Shown one piece after another: positions 4,561-37,494 of a stretch of 46,574 nucleotides of DNA (positions are counted from its first letter, which is position 1; the number at the start of each line of letters is the position of its first letter). The notes under the pieces were generated by a model. That model was not told the DNA's origin. It did no database searches and saw only the letters and a program-made list of their open reading frames with translations. The stretch covers positions 1-46,574 of the forward strand of contig JAPLZY010000009.1 in NCBI GenBank assembly GCA_026394775.1, read 5' to 3'. Position numbers and translations under genes: made by a program. This stretch comes from Candidatus Zambryskiibacteriota bacterium (GTDB lineage: Bacteria > Patescibacteriota > Minisyncoccia > Phycocordibacterales > DATDWN01).

Positions 4561-4665
4561 ATATTTGAGCAAAGTTCTAGGCGGACTAGAAAAATAATTT
4601 GAGGCGTACTAATGTACGATGAGAATTATTTTTTGAAGTCCAACAACGAAATTTGCCAAATATGG
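4561..4665 (-). repeat. 105-bp palindromic element, copy 1, directly after the VirB4 stop
   Basis: Aligns without gaps to 18376-18480 with four differences in 105 bp. The ends are inverted (ATATTTGAGCAAA against ATATTTGGCAAAT on the other strand), the middle pairs GGACT with AGTCC and AAAATAATT with AATTATTTT, and the tip is CGTAC-TAAT-GTACG. It begins 8 bp after the VirB4 stop codon. Read in the gene's direction it is terminator-like, with an A/T-rich stem. Confidence 0.85.
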
Positions 4666-9650: not shown

Positions 9651-9763
9651 ATACGAATATACGAATAATTCGAATCTACGAATGAATACGAATAGATGCA
9701 TTTATTCGTAACCATTCGTAAGTATTCAATTCGTATATTCGTATGTTTTCGCATATTAGTATG
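9651..9763. repeat. ACGAAT-rich long palindrome, copy 1
   Basis: A perfect 16-bp inverted repeat (ATACGAATATACGAAT on the left, its complement near 9732-9747) encloses further ACGAAT/ATTCGT units, so the roughly 100-bp tract can fold into one long hairpin. It lies directly after the stop of the minus-strand gene at 9764. Related tracts are at 31235-31326, 39659-39746 and, as a fragment, 44382-44414. Confidence 0.85.
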
Positions 9764-18375: not shown

Positions 18376-18480
18376 ATATCTGAGCAAAGTTCTAGGTGGA
18401 CAAGAAAAATAATTTGAGGCGTACTAATGTACGATGAGAATTATTTTTTGAAGTCCAACAACGAAATTTGCCAGATATGG
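18376..18480 (-). repeat. 105-bp palindromic element, copy 2, directly after the uvrD stop
   Basis: Matches 4561-4665 at 101 of 105 positions. Two of the four differences are a compensatory pair in the terminal stem: T4565-A4659 in copy 1 is C18380-G18474 here. Sequence outside the shared 105 bp is also self-complementary (AGTAACTCA on the left against TGGGGTTACT on the right). It begins 10 bp after the uvrD stop codon, the same relation as copy 1 to VirB4. Confidence 0.85.
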
Positions 18481-28781: not shown

Positions 28782-28870
28782 TGTTGCTACAAGATATCAC
28801 AGTATTCATTATATTGCAAGGGCTTTATCACCGATAGGTGTATTGCTCTTGGAAGGCCTTAAAAGACCCA

Positions 28871-28879
28871 TGGTATACT
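28871..28879 (+). promoter_or_regulatory. Extended -10 promoter of the Xer recombinase
   Basis: TGGTATACT (28871-28879) ends 9 bp before the ATG at 28889, predicting a leader of only a few bases. Confidence 0.55.
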
Positions 28880-28888
28880 AATGGTTAT

Positions 28889-29905
28889 ATGTCATCTCTC
28901 AAAGCTCTTAAACAACAGTTTCTTGAATATATTGAGATAGAAAAAGGACGGTCTTTAAATACGGTTGAAAATTATGACCGCTATCTTACGCGCTTTTTGA
29001 AATTCATTAAACACGACTCTCCCGCAGATATCACTGACAGTACTATTCGAGAGTTTCGACTCTGGCTCAACCGACAGTCAAACCTACCATGGAAAAGTCT
29101 TGATAAAGACGGAAAGCCTTTGAAAAACCGCGACAAAGGAGAAACATTGTCTAAGAAAACTCAAAATTATTATCTCATTGCCCTTCGAGCGTTCCTTAAA
29201 TATTTGGCTCGTGAAGGAGTAAAGTCTGTGTCCCCAGAGCGTATTGAGCTTGCAAAAGTGAGTGAGCGATCGCTTGACCTTATTACAGGTGCTGAGCTGA
29301 CACGTCTTCGTGAAGCGCCCAAAGGCACAGGTCTTAAGGTGTTGCGAGACAAAGCTATTATGGAGCTTCTTTTTTCGACAGGGCTTCGTGTGTCTGAGCT
29401 CTGTGCGCTGACTGCTGATATAGACCTAAGTTCTGATGAGCTTTCAATTCGAGGGAAAGGAGGAAAGGTTCGTGTTGTTTTTATTTCAGATGAGGCAAAA
29501 AAACATGTAAAAGCATATTTGCTTGCTCGAAAGGACATGGAAGAAGCTTTGTTTGTGCGAATTGGTGTTGAAGGAACAGGGAAAAATACAATGGCTAAAC
29601 CCCGCGAGTCCAAGAGCGGGGTCGCCCGATCCGCCAAGGGCGGATTTAGGGAATCGAGCGCACTCAACCGCCACTCAGTAGAACGGATCATCAGACACTA
29701 TGCGACCAAAGCAGGTCTTTCAAAAAAAGTCACTCCGCATACGATGCGTCACCTGTTTGCTACTGACCTACTTTCAAATGGTGCAGATATTCGCTCAGTG
29801 CAAGCGCTGCTCGGACATTCAAGTATTATTACGACTCAGATATATACACATGTAACTGACAAGCATCTACGAGACATCCATAAGAAATTCCATAGCAAAA
29901 AGTGA
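28889..29905 (+). CDS. XerC/XerD-type tyrosine recombinase with an in-frame insertion
   Basis: From the ATG at 28889 (338 residues, MSSLKALKQQFLEYIEIEKGRS) the protein has an N-terminal SAM-like core-binding domain (about 1-110) and a catalytic domain with FSTGLRVSEL (catalytic Arg), GKGGKVRVVFI (beta hairpin with Lys), HTMRHLFATDLL (His/Arg), LGHSSIITTQIYTHV (His and nucleophile Tyr). All catalytic residues are present, so it should resolve chromosome dimers at dif. About 25 extra residues (TGKNTMAKPRESKSGVARSAKGGFRES) near 230-260 are encoded by GC-rich palindromes. The longer ORF start at 28838 precedes the -10 and is rejected. A dif site was not identified. Confidence 0.92.
   Translation: MSSLKALKQQFLEYIEIEKGRSLNTVENYDRYLTRFLKFIKHDSPADITDSTIREFRLWLNRQSNLPWKSLDKDGKPLKNRDKGETLSKKTQNYYLIALRAFLKYLAREGVKSVSPERIELAKVSERSLDLITGAELTRLREAPKGTGLKVLRDKAIMELLFSTGLRVSELCALTADIDLSSDELSIRGKGGKVRVVFISDEAKKHVKAYLLARKDMEEALFVRIGVEGTGKNTMAKPRESKSGVARSAKGGFRESSALNRHSVERIIRHYATKAGLSKKVTPHTMRHLFATDLLSNGADIRSVQALLGHSSIITTQIYTHVTDKHLRDIHKKFHSKK
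29599..29650 (+). repeat. GC-rich double hairpin inserted in frame in the Xer gene
   Basis: CCCCGC (29600-29605) pairs with GCGGGG (29616-29621), and ATCCGCC (29629-29635) with GGCGGAT (29639-29645). The DNA is much more GC-rich than the gene around it, and the encoded peptide is charged and non-conserved. Confidence 0.7.
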
Positions 29906-29949: not shown

Positions 29950-30040
29950 GATCCTTACAGGATCAGTACACCTTGTCGATCTTTTGATTACAAAAGCTCT
30001 GACAAGGTCTTGCGAAAGCATATGATGCTTTCTCACTTGG
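29950..30040 (+). repeat. Three-hairpin element, copy A
   Basis: Three helices: GATCC-TTACA-GGATC (29950-29964); ACCTTGTC...GACAAGGT (about 29970-30008) enclosing CTTTTG-ATTA-CAAAAG; and AAGCAT...ATGCTT (about 30016-30030). It ends in TCTCAC. It lies 45 bp after the Xer stop. Copies B and C at 34928 and 43117 share loops but differ in stems. Confidence 0.75.
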
Positions 30041-32875: not shown

Positions 32876-32947
32876 GCTCCCGTAGCTTAATGGATAAAGT
32901 ATCGGTCTTCGGAACCGTGGATGTGGGTTCGATTCCTGCCGGGAGCA
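32876..32947 (+). tRNA. tRNA-Arg (anticodon TCG)
   Basis: Acceptor GCTCCCG (32876-32882) pairs with CGGGAGC (32940-32946). The anticodon loop CTTCGGA gives TCG, decoding CGN arginine codons. The T arm contains GTTCGATTCC. The discriminator is A; CCA is not encoded. Confidence 0.93.
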
Positions 32948-32985
32948 CAGTGTTGATAACTAATGATTATTTTTTCGAACCGAGC

Positions 32986-32994
32986 TGGTATACT
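32986..32994 (+). promoter_or_regulatory. Extended -10 promoter of the HTH-LAGLIDADG gene
   Basis: TGGTATACT (TATACT at 32989-32994) starts exactly 12 bp before the ATG at 33001, so the mRNA should start at or next to the ATG. Confidence 0.6.
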
Positions 32995-33000
32995 TATGTA

Positions 33001-33660
33001 ATGAGAAAAGATAAAGAGAAAGCGGTTGAATTAAGGTTATCAGGGAAAAGTTACAATGAAATAAAAGATATTCTAAAAATATCCAAATCAACGCTCTCTG
33101 AGTGGTTTAAGGTGATGCCAGAATCAGAGAATATTAGACAAAAGCTTGTTGCTGATCGAAAAGAAAATGATTTACTTGTTCTAAAAAAGGTAAATAATAA
33201 AAGAAGCCTCTACTTAGATGCTTTATACGAAAAAGCTAGAAGTGATGCGGTTATAGAGTACGAAATACACAGTAAAACCGCTTTGTTTATCGCAGGTTTG
33301 GGGCTGTACTATGGTGAAGGTAATAAAGCATCTAAATATGCAGTAAGTATTTCAAACTCGGACTATAGAGTTTTAGCTATTTTCCGGAATTTTCTTATAC
33401 GAGTTTGTAATATTTCTCCAGGTGTTATAAAATCATGGTTGCTTCTTTACCCTGATCTCAACGAAGAGATATGTAAAGAACATTGGATTAATAAAGTACA
33501 TTTAGGTAGAGATAGTTTTATGAAAAGTACCTGCATACAAGGTCGTCATAAAACTAGAAGGGTTTCTTATGGGATTTGCACTATTGGTTTAGGAAGTAGA
33601 GTGTTGAAAAACAAAATACTTGTCTGGCTTGATTTAATGGCTCAAAACATGGGTAAATAG
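33001..33660 (+). CDS. Helix-turn-helix protein with a LAGLIDADG-like motif
   Basis: From the ATG at 33001 (219 residues, MRKDKEKAVELRLSGKSYNEI) the N-terminal part (8-36) is a resolvase-type HTH: LRLSGKSYNEIKDILKISKSTLSEWFK. The middle has FIAGLGLYYGEGNK (about 96-109), a single LAGLIDADG-like helix with acidic Glu, followed by SISNSDYRVLAIFRNFL. One motif implies a homodimer. The gene lies between tRNA-Arg and tRNA-Gly. It could be a homing endonuclease or a DNA-binding regulator derived from one. The ORF start inside the tRNA at 32890 is rejected. Confidence 0.78.
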   Translation: MRKDKEKAVELRLSGKSYNEIKDILKISKSTLSEWFKVMPESENIRQKLVADRKENDLLVLKKVNNKRSLYLDALYEKARSDAVIEYEIHSKTALFIAGLGLYYGEGNKASKYAVSISNSDYRVLAIFRNFLIRVCNISPGVIKSWLLLYPDLNEEICKEHWINKVHLGRDSFMKSTCIQGRHKTRRVSYGICTIGLGSRVLKNKILVWLDLMAQNMGK

Positions 33661-33773: not shown

Positions 33774-34189
33774 ATTTGTGTGATTTTGTCCTTGTTTTTA
33801 GGACTTTTTACCACAATAAGACTTTCTGTGAGACACTCTCCCTTTATTAAAGCCATTTTTTCCTAATATATGTTGAAAACTGTGGATAAGTCTGTGGACA
33901 TGTGTATTAGGGACAGTCTTTGACGCCTGTCAAAATATAGGACTTCGTGACTGAAAGGCTCAAAATATGGCTTTGAATAAAGAAAATCGTGTACTTTATC
34001 ATTTTATTTCCCAATTAAACTCCCAGTAATCAATGTTACATAAGTAACATTGATACGCCTTACACGTGCTACATGTGCAATCAAGATAATACGCCAGTAT
34101 ATTCTTTTGAGAAGCGAATTTTGTGCACCGAGTGTTGAGCGAAGAAATACCGAGTCTAGTAAGACGAGGTGCCACGTGTAACATGGGTG
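33774..34189. other. Long intergenic region without a recognisable gene; one perfect inverted repeat
   Basis: About 400 bp with no supported ORF. It contains ATCAATGTTAC-ATAA-GTAACATTGAT (34029-34054), an 11-bp perfect inverted repeat with no T-run, so more like a protein site than a terminator. The 14-mer GTGCCACGTGTAAC occurs at 34169-34182, overlapping the expected -35 region of the yraN promoter. Confidence 0.6.
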
Positions 34190-34195
34190 TATAAT
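34190..34195 (+). promoter_or_regulatory. -10 box of yraN
   Basis: TATAAT starts exactly 12 bp before the ATG at 34202. No -35 consensus is seen; instead CACGTG (34173-34178) lies there. Confidence 0.6.
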
Positions 34196-34201
34196 ATAAG
34201 T

Positions 34202-34630
34202 ATGAAAGAAAAAGCTCCGCCTAAGTTACGTACCAAAACCCAGAAACAGATAGTGGGAGCGATTGGGGAAGATGCGGTGTGTGTATATTTGAAGCGAAAA
34301 GGGTATACAGTCACAGATCGTAACTATTTGAAAAAGTGGGGGGAGCTTGATGTTGTTGCTCGCAAAGGCGCTAAAATCTACTTTGTAGAGGTAAAAAGCG
34401 TTTCGCGACCCTTTGATGATGTGCCACGTGTAACATCTGAGAGTGGTTATAGGCCTGAGGATAATATGCATCCATGGAAGTTAAAGAGGCTCTCGCGTAT
34501 CATTCAGTCCTATCTCTTGGACAAAAATGTCCCTGATGAAGTAGAGTGGCAGTTTGATGTAGCGACGGTCTATGTAGACCAAGCTAAAAGACTTTGTAGG
34601 GTAAAAATGTTGGAAGATGTAATACTTTAA
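34202..34630 (+). CDS. YraN/UPF0102-family nuclease-like protein
   Basis: From the ATG at 34202 (142 residues, MKEKAPPKLRTKTQKQIVGAIGEDAVCVYL) it shows the family pattern: G-x-x-G-E-x-x-A-x-x-Y-L, GYTVTDRNYLKKWGELDVVARKGAKIYFVEVKSVS (the GELD...EVK motif of PD-(D/E)xK nucleases), and W-x-FDVATVYV near the C-terminus. The role is unknown, probably DNA processing. A longer GTG start at 34169 would overlap the promoter. Confidence 0.86.
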   Translation: MKEKAPPKLRTKTQKQIVGAIGEDAVCVYLKRKGYTVTDRNYLKKWGELDVVARKGAKIYFVEVKSVSRPFDDVPRVTSESGYRPEDNMHPWKLKRLSRIIQSYLLDKNVPDEVEWQFDVATVYVDQAKRLCRVKMLEDVIL

Positions 34631-34680
34631 ATTGTAATTTGATGGTTTTATGGTAGACTGGTTTGGTATTAAGTTTTTAC

Positions 34681-34720
34681 CACGGGGTGTGGTGTGAACT
34701 GCTAACCTGATTGTTTTGGG
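34681..34720 (+). pseudogene. 5' half of a tRNA-Pro-like sequence
   Basis: CGGGGTGTGGTGT followed by GAACTGCTAACCTGATTGTTTTGG resembles the first half of the intact tRNA-Pro at 34760 but diverges in the D and anticodon arms, and no 3' partner follows directly. It leads into the left arm of an inverted repeat. Confidence 0.6.
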
Positions 34721-34877
34721 GGTAAAATTTAATTTGTTTTTTAAGATTAAGAATAACGTCGGGGTGTGGTGTAACGGCTAACATGCTTGATTTGGGATCA
34801 AGTGACTCCGGGTTCGAATCCCGGCACCCCGACGTTGGTCTGAATCTTTAAATTAAAAAACAAATTAAATTTTACCC
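34720..34877. repeat. 25-bp perfect inverted repeat flanking tRNA-Pro
   Basis: GGGTAAAATTTAATTTG plus TTTTTTAA (34720-34744) is exactly complementary to 34853-34877. Between the arms, AACGTC/GACGTT extends the tRNA acceptor stem outward, so arms and tRNA form one large inverted structure. Confidence 0.85.
34760..34832 (+). tRNA. tRNA-Pro (anticodon TGG)
   Basis: Acceptor CGGGGTG (34760-34766) pairs with CACCCCG (34825-34831). The anticodon stem CTTGA/TCAAG holds loop TTTGGGA, reading TGG. The T arm is CCGGG-TTCGAAT-CCCGG. CCA is not encoded. Confidence 0.94.
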
Positions 34878-34900
34878 AGAAGCGTTTTACGCTTCTGTGG

Positions 34901-35027
34901 CCCGAAGGGAGGTGACTCCGGGTTCGACTCCTTACAGGAGCTGTACACCTTGTTGATCTTTTGATTACAAAAGCTCTAGCAAGGTCTTGCGAAGTGAGGT
35001 CGCTCACTTCTCACCCGGCACCCCGAC
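34901..35027 (+). pseudogene. Duplicate tRNA-Pro 3' half interrupted by the three-hairpin element
   Basis: GTGACTCCGGGTTCGA (about 34912-34927) repeats 16 nt of the intact tRNA-Pro, and CCCGGCACCCCGAC (35014-35027) repeats its last 14 nt. Between them lies the whole three-hairpin element (34928-35013), so the duplicate tRNA is broken exactly within the T loop. A hairpin CAGAAGCG-TTTTA-CGCTTCTG precedes it at about 34878-34898. Confidence 0.75.
34928..35016 (+). repeat. Three-hairpin element, copy B
   Basis: CTCC-TTACA-GGAG; ACCTTGTT...AGCAAGGT enclosing CTTTTG-ATTA-CAAAAG; GAAGTGAG-GTCG-CTCACTTC; ends TCTCAC. Compared with copy A the first and third stems have changed on both arms with pairing kept. 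A U-G pair in the second stem favours the plus strand as RNA. Confidence 0.78.
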
Positions 35028-35049: not shown

Positions 35050-35349
35050 ATGTTCAAGCGAACTATCGAAGACTTTACGTGTGAGTATTGTGGGAAAAAG
35101 GTGGTAGGGAATGGTTTTACCAATCATTGTCCGCAGTGTTTGTGGTCTAAACATGTAGATGTTGACCCTGGAGACCGGCTAGCCGAATGTGAGGGACTGA
35201 TGCGTCCAACTGAGATACAAAAGAAGGGAAGTGAGTATGCTATTATCCAAGTGTGTGAAAAATGTGGCTTTACTCGAGCGAATAAGGCACAGAAGGAAGA
35301 TAGTTTTGATGCATTAACTCAGATACAGTCAGAAAAACAGTTTAGCTAG
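35050..35349 (+). CDS. RNHCP-domain zinc-binding protein
   Basis: From the ATG at 35050 (99 residues) the sequence fits the RNHCP family: FTCEYCGKKV, FTNHCPQCLWSKHVDVDPGDRLAECEGLMRP, then VCEKCGFTRANKAQKEDSFDAL. The paired Cys motifs suggest two zinc sites. Function is unknown; a nucleic-acid role is possible. TATATT lies 10 bp before the ATG, so the start used by the longer ORF (34987) is rejected. Confidence 0.88.
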   Translation: MFKRTIEDFTCEYCGKKVVGNGFTNHCPQCLWSKHVDVDPGDRLAECEGLMRPTEIQKKGSEYAIIQVCEKCGFTRANKAQKEDSFDALTQIQSEKQFS

Positions 35350-35350
35350 A

Positions 35351-35388
35351 TTGACCTATTCATATCTAAAGTATATACTTTGGATATG
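35351..35388 (+). promoter_or_regulatory. Promoter and palindromic operator of the relB-yafQ pair
   Basis: TTGACC (35351-35356), 17-bp spacer, TATACT (35374-35379), ATG at 35386. A 28-bp palindrome, CATATC-t-AAAGTATATACTTT-g-GATATG (35361-35388), covers the -10 box and start codon with one mismatched pair. Confidence 0.8.
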
Positions 35389-35664
35389 AAAACAATGATT
35401 AACATCAAGACTGATAAAGATATTAAGTTAAAGGCTCAGAAAGTTGCGGAAGATTTAGGTTTGCCTCTAGGTACTATTTTAAATGCGTATTTAAGGGAGC
35501 TTATTCGAACAAAGGAAGCTCATTTTGGAGGTGCACCTCGAATGTCAGATGCTTTAGAGCGGTTAGTTGCTATTGTAGAGAAGGATATTAAAAACAAAAA
35601 AAATTTCTCTCCTGTATTTTCAAATGGAGCAGATATGGATAAGTACCTCGACAATTTATCATAA
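35386..35664 (+). CDS. RelB/DinJ-family antitoxin
   Basis: From the ATG at 35386 (92 residues) the N-terminal part MKTMINIKTDKDIKLKAQKVAEDLGLPLGTILNAYLRELIRTKE is a ribbon-helix-helix DNA-binding domain. The C-terminal part (about 50-92) is the disordered, toxin-neutralising tail. The toxin follows 5 bp downstream. The antitoxin should repress its own promoter at the palindrome that covers the -10 box. Its mRNA is predicted to be leaderless. Confidence 0.9.
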   Translation: MKTMINIKTDKDIKLKAQKVAEDLGLPLGTILNAYLRELIRTKEAHFGGAPRMSDALERLVAIVEKDIKNKKNFSPVFSNGADMDKYLDNLS

Positions 35665-35669
35665 GTCCT

Positions 35670-35930
35670 ATGAATGCAACTCCGCATAAAAATTTTCTAA
35701 AGAAATATATAAAATTGCGTCCAGGAGAGAAACAAAAATTTAAAGAACGAAGGGATCTTTTTCTAAATGATCCTTTTAACCCTATACTTAATAATCATGC
35801 ACTCGAAGGAAAGTATAAGGGGTATCGAAGTATCAATATTGGAGGGGACTTACGAGTAGTGTATAGACTGGTAGCAGATGATATTGCTTTATTTGTGACT
35901 ATCGATACTCATAGCAACTTGTATAAATAA
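35670..35930 (+). CDS. YafQ/RelE-family mRNA interferase toxin
   Basis: The 86-residue protein fits the YafQ/RelE fold: KNFLKKYIKLRPGEKQKFKERRDLFLNDPFNPILNNHALEGKYKGYRSINIGGDLRVVYRLVADDIALFVTIDTHSNLY. The final THSxLY motif and Arg in LRVVYR are typical. It would cleave mRNA on the ribosome until bound by the antitoxin. The pair is 5 bp apart. Confidence 0.9.
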   Translation: MNATPHKNFLKKYIKLRPGEKQKFKERRDLFLNDPFNPILNNHALEGKYKGYRSINIGGDLRVVYRLVADDIALFVTIDTHSNLYK

Positions 35931-37166: not shown

Positions 37167-37237
37167 GCGGGATTAGTTTAGTGGTAGAATGACGCACTTC
37201 CAATGCGTAGACGGGAATTCGATTTTCCCATCCCGCA
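37167..37237 (+). tRNA. tRNA-Gly (anticodon TCC)
   Basis: GCGGGAT (37167-37173) pairs with ATCCCGC (37230-37236). The anticodon stem CGCAC/GCGTA-like holds TTCCAAT, reading TCC. GAATTCGATTTTCC is a slightly unusual T arm. Discriminator A; CCA not encoded. Confidence 0.92.
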
Positions 37238-37238
37238 C

Positions 37239-37278
37239 AAATAGTAAAAAACCGGCTTTTGCCGGTTTTTTACTATTT
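37239..37278 (+). terminator. Terminator after tRNA-Gly(TCC)
   Basis: An 18-bp perfect stem with TTTT loop: AAATAGTAAAAAACCGGC (37239-37256) against 37261-37278. Confidence 0.9.
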
Positions 37279-37494
37279 GACAGGGATGGAGCAAGAGTGC
37301 CTGCGCGCTCTTACGTGAGAATTGGACTGACCGCAGCTATGTTTTTCTACCAAGAAAAACAAGCGAGGTGGGGCCAGCAGAAATTTGTGAGCGACGGCGA
37401 GCAAATTATCTGGGCTGCGATTCTCCTGTCCTTAGCTAAGCATAGACTTGATTTTTAATCTAGATAATGTTAAGTTCACTTCGGAGACAGATCA
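37279..37494 (+). other. Gap with a possible degenerate coding remnant
   Basis: Codons from 37279 to 37458 are open and translate to a run containing RIGLTAAMFFYQEKQARW and SDGEQIIWAAILLSLA, GC-richer than the surroundings. No start or ribosome site exists inside; the open frame begins in tRNA-Gly and its terminator. I do not call a gene. The rest (37459-37494) holds the ribosome site of the next gene. Confidence 0.4.

Follow-up and report, generated by a model that had tools for sequence, protein, structure and literature searches.

The tRNA-Pro locus at positions 34683–35026 (+ strand) of the window is one nested object, in which a tRNA-Pro lies within an interrupted outer tRNA-Pro. The window is the whole stretch of 46,574 nucleotides that was analysed, contig 28 of a source genome of 752,968 bases in 32 contigs. 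The nested arrangement is observed directly in its anatomy, its junctions, its covariation and its recurrence across tRNA-Pro isoacceptors. The reading that we prefer, and to which we give about an even chance, is that an intron-like structured cassette, probably mobile, enters tRNA-Pro anticodon loops with a replacement tRNA. The mobility of the cassette, its transcription, its processing and its benefit or function are what we infer from the nucleotide sequence.

Anatomy of the composite locus

The outer tRNA-Pro is split into three parts (Table 1). It stops after tRNA position 37 and picks up at position 41, with an insert of 189 nt that contains arm 5, the intact tRNA-Pro(UGG), arm 3, hairpin A, GTGG and hairpin B in this order. 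The inner tRNA has a complete cloverleaf with its anticodon; it is called by ARAGORN and scores 66.6 bits against Rfam RF00005. It is the only full-length match in the source genome, the second match being the outer 5' half. The inverted arms around it (34720–34752 and 34845–34877) are 33 nt long and 91% complementary, and 25 perfect pairs are read from the sequence in their core, as the first-pass annotation had described. The decayed 5' half that it placed on the left matches tRNA nucleotides 1–37 at 87%, and the duplicated 3' end that it placed on the right is identical at 19 of 20 positions (34912–34931) and at 14 of 14 (35014–35027). These pieces are real, but they are not separate halves beside an intact gene; both belong to one outer tRNA-Pro. 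Hairpins A and B (34878–34909) were not part of that description. The RNA fold of the 345-nt locus has an energy of -157.5 kcal/mol (z -11), and none of 100 shuffles is as low; the fold is not a product of chance.

The inner tRNA gene encodes no CCA. A gene related to CCA tRNA nucleotidyltransferase lies 2 kb away, with a best NCBIfam match of 278.6 bits against a cut-off of 290 and with Pfam domains as well. In 12 of the 15 loci read, a promoter-like extended -10 motif is located 5' of the outer half; two loci have it in arm 5. Its mostly upstream position suggests one precursor transcript.

Table 1. Features of the composite tRNA-Pro locus and its neighbours in the window
Feature	Position	Strand	Remarks
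UPF0102 (YraN-like) gene	34169–34630	+	upstream neighbour, conserved
Extended -10, promoter-like TGGTAGACT	34654–34659	+	motif; 5' of outer 5' half only
Outer tRNA-Pro 5' half	34683–34720	+	acceptor strand, decayed D arm, anticodon loop through position 37
Cassette arm 5	34721–34759	+	perfect 25-bp core 34720–34744
Inner tRNA-Pro(UGG), intact	34760–34832	+	ARAGORN and Rfam RF00005
Cassette arm 3	34833–34877	+	perfect core 34853–34877
Hairpin A	34878–34896	+	8 bp, 3-nt loop
Linker GTGG	34897–34900	+	GNGG in 15/15 loci
Hairpin B	34901–34909	+	CCC-GAA-GGG
Outer tRNA-Pro 3' half, part 1	34910–34927	+	position 41 to T loop
Dispersed three-hairpin element, 86 nt	34928–35013	+	within outer T loop
Outer tRNA-Pro 3' half, part 2	35014–35026	+	T-stem strand, acceptor strand, A73
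RNHCP-domain gene	35050–35349	+	downstream neighbour

The hairpin element in the T loop of the outer copy is bordered by the intact T-stem strands CCGGG and CCCGG. That it entered a tRNA-derived sequence, as first proposed, is borne out by relatives (UBA910, C7867-006 and Tobar) whose outer 3' halves have an uninterrupted T loop; the empty site of UBA910 may be secondary, because its outer half also has the 3' flank of the inner copy. The 86-nt insert is one of a dispersed family that has three copies in the window, and a query with the locus gives about a dozen further places in its own genome and many in relatives. At three nested loci the element lies within the outer T loop, forward in the window and reverse at both loci of genome G110, while Campbellbacteria has a longer hairpin array at the same place with the same first hairpin. 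The other copies that were read are outside tRNA sequence and without T-arm flanks. Given about a dozen copies over 753 kb and a loop of 7 nt, chance does not account for the three T-loop matches, and the element likely prefers the outer T loop, or a pseudo-tRNA.

Some further repeats and reading frames are seen in the window. One element copy (29952–30035) is about 47 nt downstream of an Xer-like tyrosine recombinase gene (28838–29905). A 29-nt inverted repeat (90%; 37228–37289) includes in one arm the 3' end of tRNA-Gly (37167–37238). Long dispersed palindromes of the TACGAATAGCTACGAATGAATTC type are located at 9681, 31262 and 39679, and a 105-nt repeat of 96% identity at 4561–4665 and 18376–18480. 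A RelB-like and YafQ-like toxin-antitoxin pair (35380–35930) is directly downstream of the RNHCP gene, and a 256-aa reading frame (32876–33660) that begins inside tRNA-Arg has no Pfam match and a weak NCBIfam match to IS1. In a genome of another class (L139, G793; ~1360–1680), a partial 3' copy of tRNA-Gly lies near the intact gene, and its T loop appears split by a hairpin array, like that of the outer Pro half.

Recurrence and conservation of the nested arrangement

The first-pass annotation took the locus for a single rearrangement; instead, the nested arrangement with its covarying structure is found again in many genomes. The same anatomy is read in 15 loci, including the window, and in three decayed or partial ones (G028, G560 and G603), together from at least 11 tool-labelled families. 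The inserts of the 15 loci are 132–200 nt long with their parts in identical order. A pattern of a GGTTCRA-type tRNA and the hairpin A motif, open to any such tRNA and not to tRNA-Pro alone, matches 7 of 397 genomes of the order, while the reversed-pattern control matches none. All seven tRNAs are tRNA-Pro(UGG). A like pattern matches the window genome alone among 383 genomes of the class. Scanning the contigs of named genomes gives 23 stretches. Nine of them have the 8-bp hairpin and a nested tRNA-Pro (Paceibacterota Tobar13m-G46, Campbellbacteria CG22, Umea_bin-06831, Zambryskibacteria RIFOXYD1, C4_MAG_00080, Parcubacteria C7867-006, Nomurabacteria Kiruna_bin-09228, UBA910 and Taylorbacteria RYN_386); the other 14 have neither, with stems of at most 5 bp.

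Covariance model R1, built on hairpins A and B, matches 25 of the 397 order genomes at E ≤ 0.01, and 12 of these matches are strong (E < 1e-5), with G110 (two loci), G057, G106 and G028 newly found. All 12 strong matches were read and, among the 13 weaker ones, that in G314 alone, which is a plain palindrome. Among 324 genomes of the class that do not belong to the order, a second model, R2, gives G560, G603 and G508. In 286 genomes from beyond the class R2 finds no nested locus; both models are derived from nested loci, and distant versions can escape them. Eleven loci were read among the class and phylum model matches, with L135, L136 and L137 left out. The perfect-stem hairpin A motif, searched in 46 genomes, is confined to nested loci and occurs once per locus. 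The single match of a viral scan (L128, on a viral contig) is an ordinary tRNA-Pro with an imperfect hairpin and was judged false, and a phage collection compared with the locus at distant-blastn sensitivity gives no match.

The inner anticodons are UGG, CGG or GGG, that is, the cassette is found in tRNA-Pro genes of all three anticodons. G110 has two cassettes, one within a CGG gene and one within a UGG gene. In G057 another outer 5' half and another complementary arm pair (13 of 14 pairs, by reading) lie beyond the first nest, and the locus reads as three tRNAs, each inside the next, apparently nested twice. The outer 3' half is present twice in G560. In G603 the cassette lies within a broken tRNA-Pro and its arm has only a 4-nt loop where an inner tRNA would be, and an intact tRNA-Pro(CGG) lies just downstream. 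G106 was considered as a heterotypic nest of outer UGG and inner CGG. This candidate was weakened, because the locus adjoins tRNA-Ala(CGC) as other CGG loci do and a CGG gene in decay may account for its outer copy.

All 15 loci have an intact inner tRNA. The outer acceptor strand or 3' half is broken in several (Taylorbacteria, C4_MAG, Kiruna and Campbellbacteria), and Tobar and C7867-006 have intact outer halves. The two copies are near-identical in Tobar (37/37 and 33/33) and in G110a (36/36 in the 5' half), and clearly divergent in G110b, on contig 20 (28/36 in the 5' half), and in Kiruna (27/38). In UBA910 (L064/L084) the same 12–13 nt follow the outer 3' half and the inner tRNA, a shared flank that suggests gene conversion between the copies.

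The arm sequences are unrelated between loci and complementary within each locus. In a 15 × 15 table of swapped arms, the own partner pairs best in every row and every column, with a mean of -21.8 kcal/mol for own and -5.2 kcal/mol for swapped arms. In the shuffle test of an earlier 10-locus table the weakest locus was Zambryski, matched by 37 of 1000 shuffles. The 30-nt flanks of 85 other tRNAs pair with an average of -8.5 kcal/mol, compared with -19.0 kcal/mol for the 15 nested ones; the strongest of these controls (-32.8 kcal/mol) is L129, itself nested (G560). Hairpin A has 100% paired cells across the 15 loci of alignment A2, which takes in the decayed G028 and leaves out G508, and shows double-sided changes at six of eight pairs (five of eight in the first ten loci). 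Double-sided changes that keep the structure also separate the sister genomes G000 and UBA910. G508 keeps seven of the eight pairs. The GNGG linker is present in 15/15 loci, where the script that placed hairpin A required it. The stems of hairpin B range from CCC/GGG to AAATTT-type; in alignment A1 this hairpin is misaligned in UBA910, Zambryski and Umea, and the pair counts there are underestimates.

As placed, the 5' junction follows position 37 in 14 of the 15 loci and is unclear in G508. The outer half restarts with nucleotides matching 41–43 of its own stem in most loci, and 38–40 are missing; the 3' junctions are less clear in G110b and G508. Three pairs of the outer anticodon stem are often retained; by reading, the stem is no more than partly complementary in the window, Umea and G106.

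Genomic neighbourhood and known systems

Relatives with the same arrangement and no empty site had been named as the case against the first-pass reading. That case does not hold, because orthologous tRNA-Pro loci without the interruption exist: an uninterrupted tRNA-Pro(UGG) lies within about 1 kb of YraN (UPF0102) at seven loci (G007, G008, G016, G018, G024, G029 and G030). A nested locus lies equally close to YraN in the window, G001, G002, G005, G009, G028, G033, G110, G270 and G560. G006, with a plain tRNA before RNHCP, was left out of the empty sites since its contig ends inside the tRNA. In L063 (G005) and L066 (G033), unlike in the other genomes, the tRNA locus has the reverse orientation with respect to YraN.

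No transposase, integrase or reverse transcriptase was found to accompany the cassette. The Y1 transposase PF01797, which an IS200/IS605-derived element would require in its host genome, is present in 10 of 14 nested-locus genomes and absent in G002, G005, G026 and G110, so a Y1/IS200 transposase was rejected as a necessary partner. The features of a MITE or DNA transposon are not seen either: the arms differ between loci, three target nucleotides are lost, and no target-site duplication is seen. No cassette copies are seen outside tRNA-Pro, and there is one cassette per tRNA gene. As far as these loci can tell, such one-per-gene, tRNA-Pro-only occurrence would not support ordinary transposition. 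A known RNA family was also rejected; Rfam searches (cmscan at gathering thresholds on the window, E ≤ 5 on four nested loci) gave only tRNA and chance matches.

The cassette sits one nucleotide 3' of the anticodon, as do archaeal and eukaryotic tRNA introns (bulge-helix-bulge, 37/38), and thus at the archaeal-type position. Unlike these introns, it is bacterial, holds a whole tRNA with hairpins, and lacks three exon nucleotides. The outer tRNA is usually not functional, and the likeness is one of insertion point. The group I introns of bacterial tRNAs are likewise structured inserts in the anticodon loop. However, the cassette is ~60–129 nt without its inner tRNA, no intron family is found in the Rfam covariance search, and the outer 5' half ends in G in 15/15 loci, whereas the 5' exon of a group I intron ends in U. 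Twintrons are introns within introns, and G057 resembles them as an insertion nested in an earlier insertion, but here there is no known intron class and the cargo is a tRNA. REP/RPE-type elements are dispersed palindromic repeats. The T-loop element is similarly a short dispersed hairpin repeat able to sit in a gene; it differs in its three-hairpin anatomy and in that 4 of 14 cassette genomes lack a Y1 transposase. A disrupted tRNA-Thr is described in Caldiarchaeum subterraneum, where the authors connect the disruption and tRNA fragments with a mobile element that favours a single tRNA family (PMC3293823). The disruption of a tRNA is common to both cases; there it involves a large integrated element and classical introns, and the passages on it mention no nested intact tRNA. 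The nested tRNA system is new in the sense that keyword searches of open-access papers gave none with a tRNA nested in a bacterial tRNA gene in its title or the opening of its abstract.

Competing explanations and meaning

In the preferred reading, the cassette would have entered the anticodon loop of a native tRNA-Pro(UGG) gene behind position 37, at the cost of nucleotides 38–40. Because the arms pair, the spare tRNA would form a domain of its own on a stem that takes the place of the outer anticodon arm. The outer halves could still meet as a pseudo-tRNA. Transcription would start from the single promoter-like site 5' of the outer half, and ordinary tRNA processing would cut the inner tRNA from the precursor, with CCA added later. 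Decoding would fall to the inner copy while the outer copy decays, and the insertion would be tolerated because the cassette has its own replacement tRNA on board. The cassette would be mobile, or repeatedly inserted, in tRNA-Pro genes. The outer pseudo-tRNA would become a harmless landing site, and the dispersed hairpin element would then enter its T loop. A wider form of this proposal, which we hold tentatively and put somewhat below an even chance, is a Paceibacteria RNA-structured mobile element homing to the anticodon loop of any tRNA-Pro with a working tRNA-Pro as cargo. Since it carries that cargo, the element could insert into its own cargo and produce Russian-doll tRNA genes.

Mobility is not the only way to read these loci. 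The inner and outer tRNAs that are near-identical in several genomes would fit local duplication or gene conversion no less than a cargo of foreign origin, and as the UGG insertions are mostly in the same orthologous gene, repeated insertion is hard to separate from ancient inheritance and loss. The strongest competitor, possible although we think it rather unlikely, is a host RNA device, an old and vertically inherited structured precursor in which maturation of the inner tRNA-Pro is controlled or protected by the outer tRNA-like fold together with the arms and both hairpins. Patchiness would then reflect loss by recombination between the repeated halves, and the similarity of inner and outer copies would reflect gene conversion. 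The structure-keeping double-sided changes, also between G000 and UBA910, agree with such a device, as do the YraN-adjacent locus common to 10 nested genomes of several families, the promoter-like site solely 5' of the outer half in most loci, and the conversion signature on the UBA910 outer half. It is harder to reconcile with the destroyed outer acceptor or 3' halves of Taylorbacteria, C4_MAG, Kiruna and others, with strong model matches in just 12 of 397 order genomes, with separate cassettes in CGG and GGG genes, and with the double nesting, which is difficult to derive from a single ancestral device.

Removal of the cassette by a ribozyme or enzymes would make it a spliced intron that carries the inner tRNA as cargo, and the outer precursor would yield a second functional tRNA-Pro. 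Position 37/38 is where tRNA introns canonically lie, the outer anticodon stem often retains three pairs, and the outer halves of Tobar and C7867-006 are intact; however, with nucleotides 38–40 missing, no Rfam intron match found, and the outer tRNA clearly disrupted in most loci, the window with its T-loop insert among them, we regard splicing as improbable. We grade a local replication accident just as low. Here template switching or recombination would have duplicated the tRNA and made quasi-palindromes, with no selection or mobility, and repeated template switching would keep the arms complementary. Arm complementarity can indeed come from template switching rather than selection, the copies are near-identical in some genomes, and hairpin repeats are abundant in these genomes. 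But the 8-bp hairpin A, GNGG, hairpin B and the junctions are common to many families, which makes independent accidents unlikely; the hairpin A, linker and junctions shared between loci favour a common structured element. The duplicated tRNA 3' half had led the first-pass annotation to an integrase att site, which would imply a decayed island. A duplicated tRNA end is present, but the inner tRNA and the outer 3' half are 77 nt apart, no genes are found between them and there is no island. The window recombinase is Xer-like and about 4.8 kb away, the 5' half is duplicated too, and the internal hairpins are fixed, so that an att site is very improbable.

Annotation tools report the inner copy only, which calls for caution with such loci. 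If the preferred reading is true, a tiny element survives entering an essential single-copy gene by carrying that gene inside itself, and bacteria would have tRNA interruptions at the intron position that are neither group I nor, on the features compared, of the archaeal type. Were the structure a host device instead, its covarying fold, with a tRNA enclosed in a tRNA-like shell, would still amount to a novel type of tRNA precursor. How split and interrupted tRNA genes arose would become a testable question in bacteria.
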